This document shows, piece after piece, positions 26,658-31,803 of a stretch of DNA of 43,513 bases; position 1 is the first letter of the stretch; every line of letters starts with the position of its first letter. This DNA comes from a virus. The position numbers were made by a program, and so were the translations under genes. The DNA lies in IMG/VR virus record IMGVR_UViG_3300005617_000296, positions 1-43,513 of that record, one strand, 5' to 3'. The notes under the pieces were generated by a model that searched no databases, was not told the origin of the DNA, and saw nothing but the letters and a program-made list of their open reading frames with translations.

Positions 26658-26714
26658 TTGAACCTCGTTGTAGTTAGGGCGCAGACGTTCGATAGGTCCG
26701 AAACTGGCTCAACT

Positions 26715-26745
26715 GAGCTGCCCCTGCTACCACGGCAGACAGCTC
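26715..26745. repeat. hairpin in the region before the methyltransferase operon
   Basis: GAGCTG (26715-26720) pairs with CAGCTC (26740-26745), and inside it CTGC (26724-26727) pairs with GCAG (26735-26738). It lies directly beside the larger inverted repeat at 26747-26828. On the minus strand both would be in the leader of the gene starting at 26657. Confidence 0.5.
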
Positions 26746-26746
26746 T

Positions 26747-26828
26747 GCGCTTTGAAGAGTGCCTAGGTCGGTTTAAAATTACGAGGAGTCGAACCTCACC
26801 GACTACCGCTGGGCACTCATCAAAGCGC
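26747..26828 (-). ncRNA. three-tier hairpin with tRNA T-arm-like tip (structured leader or small RNA)
   Basis: Three nested inverted repeats are seen directly. Outer arms 26747-26763 and 26812-26828 match over 17 bases with one mismatch. Middle arms GTCGGT (26767-26772) and ACCGAC (26798-26803) match exactly. The inner stem GAGG/CCTC (26783-26786 and 26794-26797) closes a 7-base loop. Read on the minus strand the tip is GAGGTTCGACTCCTC, the shape of a tRNA T arm. No acceptor stem or anticodon arm of a complete tRNA can be drawn. It lies 90 bases before the GTG of the 26657 gene. Transcription from the minus strand is inferred from the neighbours. Confidence 0.5.
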
Positions 26829-26882
26829 CCTCCTCTACCCTAGTCCCCGTTCTCCAAAGTGGGGCTATGCGTGAGGAGGACG

Positions 26883-26938
26883 GCCCTCTCCTGCCTTGTT
26901 CCCCGCAGCCACTGCGGTTATCTGGAACAGGAGAGGGC
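26883..26938 (-). terminator. long hairpin after the ssDNA-binding gene
   Basis: GCCCTCTCCTG (26883-26893) pairs exactly with CAGGAGAGGGC (26928-26938). The pairing continues inward over a 3-4 base bulge (GTTCC with GGAAC), and CCGCAG/CTGCGG (26903-26908/26912-26917) forms a tip. It begins 12 bases beyond the stop of the gene at 26950. No T-tract follows on the minus strand, so it may be a processing or stability element rather than a classical terminator. Confidence 0.55.
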
Positions 26939-26949
26939 TATCACATCGA

Positions 26950-28094: not shown

Positions 28095-28196
28095 CTATTT
28101 CGCAGTGAAAAACGAGAAGCCTATCCAAAGTGCGGCTATCCAGCAGCCCATTAGGAGCAGCCACAGCGGCAGCGGAATGCGGTCTTTTTTGCTCAT
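28095..28196 (-). CDS. 33-residue membrane microprotein
   Basis: ATG 28196 overlaps the DUF2800 stop exactly as ATGA, and TAG ends 2 bases before the next ATG. The sequence is MSKKDRIP, then one transmembrane helix (PLWLLLMGCWIAALWIGF) and a short tail. Basic N-terminus followed by the helix predicts N-in topology. The perfect fit between neighbours supports a real gene. Confidence 0.6.
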   Translation of the reverse strand: MSKKDRIPLPLWLLLMGCWIAALWIGFSFFTAK

Positions 28197-29425
28197 ACCG
28201 GCGCCTGCACCGGAAACTCGACCTGCCCCGTCGCGACGGCCTGCTTAGGCGAGTCATCGCGCACGAGAGACTTCGCACCTTCGGTCTGGTGCATGTTGCC
28301 GACGAGCACAGCCCACGCCAAGTCCTCTTTCTTTTTCAGCTTCTTCTCGGCTTCCGTCGGGCTGATGATCTCGCGCGGCTTGAATGCGCCATCAGCCAGC
28401 TTTTCCACCATTACGCGCTCGGCGAGTGCGGGGTCAATCCACTTGCGGTTGCCCGCGCGCCCGTTGACGACCTTCCAGCCAGGCAGCGTGCGCCCTAGCA
28501 TGACGGCGCGCGTATGTGCTTCGGCCTTGATGTCGCTGCACCACTGCTCGATGGTGTCCACGCGGTCGCGCGCGGCGGCGAGCGCCTCGTCGGTAAGCAG
28601 CGTCGGTGCAGTCTTCGCTGGTTGCCGATGTACTAAATCGTGCAGCGGCGCTCCGGTCTGTTGGAAAGGCTCGGCTACCGGAAACATGTCGAGCATCTTG
28701 TTAGCCCGCGCGGCGCACGAGCCTTTGATCGGGCACCAGCGGCATTGTTTGTCACCGGGCGTGAAGTCGTGCGCTGTAACGGCCATCGGGTTCTGGTACA
28801 GCGAGTATGCGCGCTTGAACCTTGGTTTGTTCTCTTTCACCCACGCGTCGATCTCTTCGACCGTGTACGTGTGCTCGCTGTAGTGGTTGATGCGCGGCTG
28901 GTGGATCCCGAGCTTCACGAACTTCCAGTCGTGCGAGAGCGCGAACTTGCGAAGTGCCGCAGCTCCGTACTGAATCAGCTGCTCGTTATTTTCCGCGAAG
29001 ACGACTTCGCCGCGGCCGAATTTGAGATCATCGACGTGGATGGTGTCGTGCTCGAAGTCGAGCGTGATCGCATCGCCGGTGCCGCCCTGCCCGGAGACCC
29101 CCACAACATCCGACGTATCAAGTCGAACTTCATAGTATTGAGCTCCAGGGATCTTTCTAATCGCGTCAACGTATTTTTGCGCATGGGCAGCGTTCTCCTC
29201 GTCGATCGTGAACTTGAAGCCGTCGGCTTCGTGCATCTTGCCGACTTCTTCGGCGCACTCTGTACCGTGCTCCAAGGCGAACGCCGCGATCTCGTGATAC
29301 GCCGTACCTTCCGCCGCGTACTCACTCGGCGGGTTCGGCGCGTTCTTGCCGGCCGCGAGCGCCGCAGCGCAGCGCAGTATCATGGCGCCCTTGCTGGGTG
29401 AGAGGACCGCGTGAATGCCGCTCAT
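28193..29425 (-). CDS. DUF2800 nuclease (Cas4/RecB-like PD-(D/E)XK with Fe-S cluster)
   Basis: 410 residues. Cys19 near the N-terminus and the C-terminal CRWCPIKGSC (about 233-242) give the four cysteines of a Cas4/AddB-type iron-sulfur site. His44-Glu45 (GTAYHEIA), GGTGDAITLDF (Asp near 117) and VDDLKFGRGEVVF (Asp-x-Lys) are the nuclease motifs, followed by ENNEQLIQYGAAAL, typical of DUF2800. It is an exonuclease for recombination or end processing, encoded next to the SSB. It is flanked on both sides by tiny membrane-protein genes joined by overlaps. Confidence 0.85.
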   Translation of the reverse strand: MSGIHAVLSPSKGAMILRCAAALAAGKNAPNPPSEYAAEGTAYHEIAAFALEHGTECAEEVGKMHEADGFKFTIDEENAAHAQKYVDAIRKIPGAQYYEVRLDTSDVVGVSGQGGTGDAITLDFEHDTIHVDDLKFGRGEVVFAENNEQLIQYGAAALRKFALSHDWKFVKLGIHQPRINHYSEHTYTVEEIDAWVKENKPRFKRAYSLYQNPMAVTAHDFTPGDKQCRWCPIKGSCAARANKMLDMFPVAEPFQQTGAPLHDLVHRQPAKTAPTLLTDEALAAARDRVDTIEQWCSDIKAEAHTRAVMLGRTLPGWKVVNGRAGNRKWIDPALAERVMVEKLADGAFKPREIISPTEAEKKLKKKEDLAWAVLVGNMHQTEGAKSLVRDDSPKQAVATGQVEFPVQAPV

Positions 29426-29944: not shown

Positions 29945-30149
29945 TGAGCAACTCCGCTTCGATGAGAGTTTGCCGAGCTTCGGCGATGCTGCGCCCGATG
30001 GCGCAGAAGCCTGGGCCGGAGAGGTTCTGCCGCACGAGGCAGCAGAAGGGGGAGGGTTCGAATTCCCAGGCGACGGGGCTACGCTGTGGGAGGCCCGTCT
30101 CGTAGAACCGGATCAGCGATCCCGTCACTCGTCTTGCCAGAATCATCAT
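29937..30149 (-). CDS. 70-residue protein overlapping its upstream neighbour, unknown
   Basis: Best start ATG 30149 (or the next ATG at 30146), with AAGGCG upstream. It overlaps the preceding gene by 71 bases, more than is usual here, so the start may be wrong. Contains two adjacent Cys (SPFCCLVRQN) and a C-terminal helix (SIAEARQTLIEAELL). Unknown. Confidence 0.4.
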   Translation of the reverse strand: MMILARRVTGSLIRFYETGLPQRSPVAWEFEPSPFCCLVRQNLSGPGFCAIGRSIAEARQTLIEAELLNG

Positions 30150-30399
30150 TGGTTGCGCCTTGCATGGGTGGGCTGTGGACCTTGATCGTGTGCTTGAAGT
30201 ACGCACGCGTCATGGTCTCGAGCACTCGCTTCGCTTGGGCGAAGTCGTGTCGGTTGAGCCCAAGCAGCCACTGCTTGAACTCTTCCGCGTATCGGTGATG
30301 ACGATCGGACAGAGCCCCCGGCTTCGGTTTGACAGCCCCTTCCGCCGCGGCAGGAACAACGGCAGAAGGAGTCTCCGAAACCGGGGGCGAGTCGTTCAT
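30079..30399 (-). CDS. 106-residue protein with helical core, unknown
   Basis: ATG 30399 shares TGATG with the previous stop. The first 30 residues are Pro/Ala-rich and flexible. A helical core follows (HHRYAEEFKQWLLGLNRHDF, then AKRVLETMTRAYF), and the tail is polar. No motif known to me. Confidence 0.55.
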   Translation of the reverse strand: MNDSPPVSETPSAVVPAAAEGAVKPKPGALSDRHHRYAEEFKQWLLGLNRHDFAQAKRVLETMTRAYFKHTIKVHSPPMQGATNDDSGKTSDGIADPVLRDGPPTA

Positions 30400-30830
30400 C
30401 AGATCAGGCTCGGCGTGGCAGGCGTCCCCTGCAACTTCGCAATAGCGGCCTTGACCTTGTTGTGGAACTCCGGAATGTTCGACTGCGGCATAGCCGTCAT
30501 CTTCTGCACTCCGAACTCGGCCAAGACCGCAACCGCAGTCGCGCGGTCGAGCTCGGCGAGAATCGACAAGTCGTCTCCCGCGGCCTTGATCTGCGCCGGC
30601 GTCACGGCAGCGGCCGTATCGGCGGTCGCAAGGCGGGCAGTCGGAGGAGTGGCGACGGGGGCGGCAGCGGCAGCGGCAGGAGCCGGAGCGGGCGCCGGCG
30701 CAGGAGCTGCGGCAGGCTTAGCTTTCGCGGCAGCGGGCTTCAGTGTGACTTGCGCGAGCGATGCCTTCAGGCATTCGGTGTTCTCGCGAACGGCGGCGGT
30801 GAGATCGGCGATGGCGGCTTCGACTGACAT
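30399..30830 (-). CDS. 143-residue protein with Ala-Pro linker, first gene after a structured leader
   Basis: ATG 30830 with GGAGA upstream. Residues 1-30 form a helix (VEAAIADLTAAVRENTECL). About 36-75 is an Ala/Pro/Lys linker. The C-terminal domain (DDLSILAELDRATAVAVLAE, then NIPEFHNKVKAAIAKLQG) is helical. The two-domain, linker-joined plan resembles small phage replication or SSB-associated factors, but no family is recognised. It opens the operon of the DUF2800 nuclease and SSB. Confidence 0.55.
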   Translation of the reverse strand: MSVEAAIADLTAAVRENTECLKASLAQVTLKPAAAKAKPAAAPAPAPAPAPAAAAAAPVATPPTARLATADTAAAVTPAQIKAAGDDLSILAELDRATAVAVLAEFGVQKMTAMPQSNIPEFHNKVKAAIAKLQGTPATPSLI

Positions 30831-30856
30831 GGAATCTCCGTGGGTGTGGATATGGT

Positions 30857-30952
30857 GTTGAGCTTTACACGGCGCCCCGGCCCTACGCCGTAGTCGCTGG
30901 TGCGCAGCTTTCAGGTTCGGTTTGCACCCGAAGGCGCCTTGCAAAGCTCAAC
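30857..30952 (-). ncRNA. cloverleaf-like structured leader (candidate cis-regulatory RNA)
   Basis: Outer arms 30857-30876 and 30933-30952 pair over 20 positions: 10 perfect pairs (GTTGAGCTTT/AAAGCTCAAC), then a 4-base stretch with one mismatch and one wobble, then GGCGCC/GGCGCC. Inside are three small hairpins: CTAC-GCC-GTAG (30883-30893), GCTG-GTGCG-CAGC (30896-30908), and TTCGG/CCGAA (30916-30920/30928-30932). It ends 26 bases before the ATG at 30830 and starts a few bases after the expected start of transcription of a candidate promoter. I recognise no known riboswitch family. Orientation is inferred from gene direction; the dyad itself is symmetrical. Confidence 0.55.
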
Positions 30953-30966
30953 TACATCGAGCCGCG

Positions 30967-30996
30967 ACCTTACGCCAGCTAACAATCGCGAGTCAA
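30967..30996 (-). promoter_or_regulatory. candidate sigma-70-like promoter for the nuclease/SSB operon
   Basis: On the minus strand TTGACT (30996-30991; 5 of 6 of TTGACA) is followed after 18 bases by TAAGGT (30972-30967; 3 of 6 of TATAAT). AT-rich sequence (AAATATTTC) lies just upstream. It sits between a terminator and the structured leader, as a promoter should. The weak -10 limits confidence. Confidence 0.35.
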
Positions 30997-31016: not shown

Positions 31017-31042
31017 AGCCCCCGATAAACGGGGGCTCTTTT
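31017..31042. terminator. bidirectional rho-independent terminator
   Basis: AGCCCCCG (31017-31024) and CGGGGGCT (31030-31037) form an 8-bp stem with the loop ATAAA. The plus strand continues CTTTT after the stem, and the minus strand continues TTCTTTT. It would end leftward transcription of the gene at 31065-31712. Confidence 0.85.
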
Positions 31043-31064: not shown

Positions 31065-31712
31065 TCAATGGGCTGCGCGTACCTCGGGTGGGTGCCGTCG
31101 CAGCGATACGGGTCGCAGACGCTGCACGGGCGCGGGGCCAGCAACCCCTAGATCGGCAAGTCCCATGCTCAGTATCCGCTCGCCTTCGGGCTGGGGCAGC
31201 TGCGCCACCAAGTCCGATATCCGGCCGACCAGGCGCATGACCGTCTTCTCGGCGCGTGCGGCGCTCAGCGGCCGCGGGGCCGAATGCTCCCTCACCCATC
31301 GAGAAAGGTTACTTTTCGAAGCCTCGCCGATCGGCGTCAGGACGTTCCAGCCGAGCTTGATCGCTCGCCGTAGTGTCGATGCCGATGAGCGCGCGAAGCT
31401 CGTCTTAGCGTTGCGCTCGAGCGCACCGAGCCCCTCGGGGACCGCAGCGAGCACCGCCTCGTAGTAGGTCGCATTGACCTTCTCGAAGGCCGCCATTGCT
31501 GCCTCTTCGGTGGGCTTGGCGTGATTGCCACGCAGAGCGCGCAGCACAGGCTTGCCGATGAGCTCGACCTGCACCCCTGCCAGGAGGCTGCGCAGGTACG
31601 TCGCACGTCCGCCGACCTCCGCGTCGGTGTGATTGATGATCTCGCGAGCGAGGGCCGTGATGTCTTTCGGGGTGGCAGCGAAGACGATTCCATTCAGCAT
31701 TTCGTGTTTCAT
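31065..31712 (-). CDS. 215-residue protein, own transcription unit, unknown
   Basis: ATG 31712 with GGAGAA upstream. The sequence is mostly helical (TPKDITALAREIINHTDAEV, YLRSLLAGVQVELIGKP, KTVMRLVGRISDLVAQLPQ) with a basic region near the middle (ASTLRRAIKLGW) and a basic C-terminus (QRLRPVSLRRHPPEVR). It stands alone between a candidate operator-promoter and a terminator, which suggests separate regulation. It could be a regulatory or structural early protein. No family recognised. Confidence 0.6.
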   Translation of the reverse strand: MKHEMLNGIVFAATPKDITALAREIINHTDAEVGGRATYLRSLLAGVQVELIGKPVLRALRGNHAKPTEEAAMAAFEKVNATYYEAVLAAVPEGLGALERNAKTSFARSSASTLRRAIKLGWNVLTPIGEASKSNLSRWVREHSAPRPLSAARAEKTVMRLVGRISDLVAQLPQPEGERILSMGLADLGVAGPAPVQRLRPVSLRRHPPEVRAAH

Positions 31713-31739
31713 GAGAGTTCTCCGTTTTGAGGGTTCGAT

Positions 31740-31764
31740 CCCCGGCGACGACATGCCGCCGGGG
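31740..31764 (-). repeat. leader hairpin before the 31712 start
   Basis: CCCCGGCG (31740-31747) pairs perfectly with CGCCGGGG (31757-31764) around a 9-base loop, 27 bases upstream of the ATG at 31712. There is no T-tract. It may stabilise the message or influence ribosome access. Confidence 0.5.
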
Positions 31765-31803
31765 TGGGAGAACTGTGCGCTACCGCTCAAAGATAAGCAG
31801 TCA

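Follow-up and report, generated by a model that had tools for sequence, protein, structure and literature searches.

A cloverleaf-like RNA fold behind a phage promoter as a possible 5'-terminal stabiliser of one early transcript

Introduction

Stem-loops at the 5' end can protect mRNAs from decay (review PMC7509114). The locus described here would resemble stabilisers of the ompA type in having a strong hairpin a few nucleotides from the predicted 5' end and an open ribosome site downstream. However, one long helix encloses three hairpins here, and the sequence is an orphan. Structured RNA directly downstream of a phage early promoter is also found at putL of phage HK022, but put RNA is about 70 nt long with two separate stem-loops (PMC9378689), whereas the 96 nt of our locus form one closed multibranch. 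Among phage replication genes, T4 genes 32 and 43 have leaders that mediate autoregulation (PMC3014915). These operators are likewise structured leaders before a replication or recombination gene, but they either overlap the ribosome site of the binder's own gene or nucleate binding that extends onto it; here the ribosome site lies outside the fold and the first gene is uncharacterised. Finally, the four-way cloverleaf-like topology and a 7-pair inner helix are shared with tRNAs and tRNA-like RNAs, from which the locus differs by having no tRNA call, no T-loop sequence and 13 extra closing pairs.

The window analysed is the whole IMG/VR virus record IMGVR_UViG_3300005617_000296 (43,513 bases), and the predicted fold occupies 30857-30952 on its minus strand.

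Results

According to PHROGs and Pfam, the window encodes a family A DNA polymerase, a Prim-Pol primase, an SNF2-type helicase, a DUF2800 exonuclease and an Enc34-type single-strand binding protein (SSB). Among named phages, Bordetella BPP-1-like phages give the best matches to the exonuclease (35% identity). A relative search based on the exonuclease yielded three records, namely G001, G002 (a fragment overlapping G001) and G003 (IMGVR_UViG_3300049927_000067); the remaining matches were at about 35% identity or less. The same search based on the 143-aa protein encoded behind the fold yielded G003 only, and the gene was not found in G001 or G002. The only orthologous locus found is thus that of G003, where the first gene is 64% identical by alignment.

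Single-sequence folding of the minus-strand RNA (30952-30857) gave a minimum free energy structure of -52.2 kcal/mol that is identical to the centroid, with a z-score of -5.00 (0 of 200 shuffles equally good). Its closing helix of 20 pairs, 13 and 7 around a 1x1 mismatch, encloses three short hairpins. Pair probabilities were 0.95-1.0 for the outer-helix pairs checked and 0.58 for the middle hairpin, which is soft. An alternative first hairpin costs only 2.6 kcal/mol in stability and presents GUGC across from the GCAC of the second loop; in the model these could form a kissing contact. The coordinates, arms, branching and promoter of the original prediction were all recovered by folding and pattern matching, with the ATG at 30830. 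The plus-strand fold is weaker (-43.5 kcal/mol, z -3.1), and the transcribed strand is better by 8.7 kcal/mol; G-U pairs of the minus strand turn into A-C mismatches on the plus strand. This modelled asymmetry makes an RNA reading more likely than a palindrome at the DNA level only.

Upstream of the fold, a pattern match identified the candidate promoter TTGACT-18-TAAGGT (30967-30996, minus strand). Its -10 hexamer is weak, matching TATAAT at three of six positions, and a standard promoter scan made no call at this site. G003 has a counterpart, TTGACA-18-TAACCT, which has both TTAGCTGG in its spacer and GTAGTT behind it in common with the window. Further upstream lies an intrinsic terminator hairpin, AGCCCCCGATAAACGGGGGCT, at 31017-31037, found in a plus-strand terminator scan and T-rich on both sides (the minus-strand tail CTTTCTTTTG was read from the sequence). 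The terminator is thus bidirectional in sequence and separates the upstream gene from the transcription unit of the folded leader. Together with the promoter common to G003, it defines a separate transcript, which supports the claim of a structured leader behind a promoter. A GC-rich hairpin, CCCCGGCGGCATGTCGTCGCCGGGG (31720-31770, minus strand), is also present in the leader of the upstream gene (31068-31712), ahead of the ribosome site.

Transcription is predicted to start at about 30960 (30957-30963, minus strand), about 7 nt past the -10 hexamer. The fold begins about 8 nt past this predicted start and ends 17 nt ahead of the Shine-Dalgarno sequence. The Shine-Dalgarno-like core CGGAG (30836-30840, minus strand), within CACCCACGGAGATTCCATG, is not part of the fold and stays mostly unpaired when the leader is folded with the gene start, indicating that the ribosome site is not sequestered. 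The terminator scan found no terminator in the leader, and hence neither form of riboswitch expression platform was seen. No poly-U follows the fold in the sequence read directly, and the element is therefore not an intrinsic attenuator.

The first gene of the unit (30399-30830, minus strand) encodes a 143-aa protein with an Ala/Pro-rich middle and a weak match to PHROG 18562, a family of uncharacterised function. The second gene in the open reading frame list (30079-30399, minus strand) overlaps it by ATGA. The first 90 or so bases of this second gene (30307-30399, minus strand) form an even stronger dyad, at -58.6 kcal/mol; a similar dyad in G003 (44978-45082, -50.9 kcal/mol) keeps the CCCCCG/CGGGGG ends with a different interior, within coding sequence. 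The DUF2800 exonuclease, of the PD-(D/E)XK type, follows at 28193-29425 (minus strand). The SSB is preceded by a promoter-like TTGACC-16-GATAGT (27748-27721, minus strand) that G001 and G003 have conserved, together with the TCTGAC after it. Regulation of the SSB from the folded leader would therefore be partial at best. The proposed nuclease/SSB operon is thus only partly supported: its first gene encodes an uncharacterised protein, and the SSB sits behind a promoter of its own that is conserved in three phages.

An affine-gap alignment was used to compare the leaders of the window and G003. The G003 leader, about 40 nt long, consists of GTAGTT, then ACCTAAC, then CACCCTCGGAG and the ATG. The window leader has the same ends plus about 110 extra bases, nearly all of which are the fold. 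Thus, the fold is wholly missing from the orthologous leader although promoter and ribosome site are kept, implying that it is dispensable for both promoter and gene. Judging from the two sequences, it was either gained in the line of the window or lost in that of G003 since their split, with no outgroup to give the direction. Because the G003 ortholog lacks the whole element, it is not a riboswitch conserved for the operon, and an autoregulatory leader conserved for it was likewise not supported. A conserved coding frame through the element had been named as evidence against an RNA. In the window, one reading frame runs uninterrupted across the element, starting at a TTG without an evident ribosome site; in G003 a TAG interrupts this frame, so an N-terminal coding extension is not conserved and was rejected.

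Rfam covariance models gave no matches in the window at the gathering threshold and none on the element at E <= 10, and neither ARAGORN nor Rfam called a tRNA on it, confirming the original view that it matches no class. A blastn search of the locus or the element against phages and plasmids returned nothing or short chance matches. The exact arm does not occur in IMG/VR, and a loop-based pattern search found none. Paired-arm patterns matched 36 stretches in IMG/VR and 9 in GTDB genomes, none of whose interiors exceeded shuffled controls in similarity; the interiors of the nine GTDB matches are unrelated to the element and include no copy of it. There was no second copy in the window or the retrieved loci, and no target-site duplication was seen in the flanks. 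A mobile palindromic repeat (MITE/REP-like) was therefore not supported, the element being single-copy in the searched loci with flanks free of duplication.

The fold is the best ungapped stem on the minus strand of the window. An equally good ungapped stem occurred on one strand in 53 of 400 block-shuffled genomes, and a comparable GC-normalised fold energy is expected at about 0.1-0.4 loci per shuffled strand. Stem strength alone is within chance for a 43-kb genome, and the claim that a dyad of such length is unlikely by chance was overstated for the genome as a whole. It stands within non-coding sequence, about 8% of the window by an approximate gene list, where we infer that a chance origin is unlikely, at about 1%. 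An accident becomes less likely given that the fold sits exactly between the promoter and the ribosome site.

Another structured site was noted between the SSB and the next small gene, where two tandem hairpins (26745-26880, minus strand) are conserved in the window, G001 (L087:2812-2936) and G003 (L093:2126-2250). Among these three sequences only, 5 of 40 predicted pairs have changed on both sides with pairing kept, and in each of the three relatives this site holds the inverted repeat that ranks first or joint first in the entire record. From sequence comparison, it is a better supported structured RNA candidate than the fold at 30857-30952 and more deserving of its own study. A pattern match to this hairpin in L142 was rejected as chance. 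The window has a further large hairpin inserted beside the tandem hairpins, at about 26880-26945. In G001, a tRNA-Thr(UGU) directly follows the conserved hairpins (L087:2931-3002); the window shows a degenerate counterpart (about 26680-26750) and no called tRNA there, with a T-arm-like GAGGTTCGACTCCTC in its hairpin loop instead. Genes built from many copies of a repeat of about 30 bases (GAGTACAACCGCGTGNNCGGCC-like) occur in G003 (L093:5680-7121, L091:1-960) and G001 (L002:1-470), where such genes are found in several copies near the record ends; none were present in the inspected parts of the window.

Discussion

We tentatively propose that the fold is a 5'-terminal, mRNA-stabilising leader of one early phage transcript, an ordinary protective hairpin; on the folding model, this reading is plausible but still doubtful. 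A transcript initiated at this promoter (30996-30967) would have its 5' end near 30960, and within a few nucleotides the nascent RNA would fold into the 20-pair helix with three small hairpins at its top, with the downstream ribosome-binding site staying free. The job would be passive: the buried 5' end would slow 5'-end-dependent mRNA decay and shield the leader. The predicted fold matches 5'-end mRNA stabilisers in burying the opening bases of the transcript and keeping the ribosome site mostly accessible. Its dispensability in G003 is easier to reconcile with an element that modulates stability quantitatively than with a sensor. Against this proposal, the searches turned up no homologue of the element, so that no pair has covariation support; the stem strength is within chance, and the -10 hexamer is weak. 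The multibranch interior is also left unaccounted for, since stabilisers need none.

The main rival, which we consider somewhat unlikely, is that the element is a functionless palindromic DNA insertion, or a chance dyad, in a tolerant leader. G003 would then represent the empty site GTAGTT-ACCTAAC, or would have lost the palindrome by replication slippage. This would agree with the absence of the fold from the sole orthologous leader, where both flanks align, with a stem strength within reach of chance and with the lack of homologues in phages, plasmids and IMG/VR. However, there was neither a target-site duplication nor a second copy in the window or the nine GTDB arm matches, the strand asymmetry favours the transcribed strand, and the element sits exactly between promoter and ribosome site.

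A protein- or ligand-binding regulatory leader, acting by autoregulation or as a riboswitch on the 143-aa gene and the genes behind it, is unlikely. The branched fold with its well-defined outer helix, the possible GUGC/GCAC contact and the T4 precedents count for it. A leader of this kind should engage either the ribosome site or a terminator, but the ribosome site is mostly unpaired and no switch or terminator is visible. The fold is also missing from the G003 ortholog, the SSB has its own promoter, and no Rfam class matched. An unrecognised RNA class, in which the four-way junction and the possible loop-loop contact would sense a phage protein or host signal from the start of an early transcript and would occur in only part of a phage lineage, has a lower probability still on the folding model.

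Processing by RNase III in the leader, as in phage early transcripts, seems quite improbable. A helix of about 20 pairs is near the length that RNase III requires, and the near-continuous 20-pair helix sits directly before a translated gene; however, a cut at the extreme 5' end would remove little, and the multibranch interior is atypical. It is very unlikely that the nascent RNA acts like put, causing RNA polymerase to read through terminators in the early region: the location shortly behind an early promoter recalls putL, but the architecture differs, and the downstream terminator-like matches on the sense strand sit inside genes. In total, terminator-like matches are fewer than in shuffles; there are no convincing sense terminators to be passed. 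Release of an independent small RNA from the leader is highly improbable, since the fold, compact and stable as it is, has no terminator after it and no conservation.

The locus illustrates that a striking fold in a single genome is weak evidence without relatives. For the phage, G003 provides a natural "minus" version for comparison. If the fold is a sensing RNA, it would represent a new class; if, as we tentatively favour, it stabilises its message, it would be one more phage leader that tunes mRNA lifetime.
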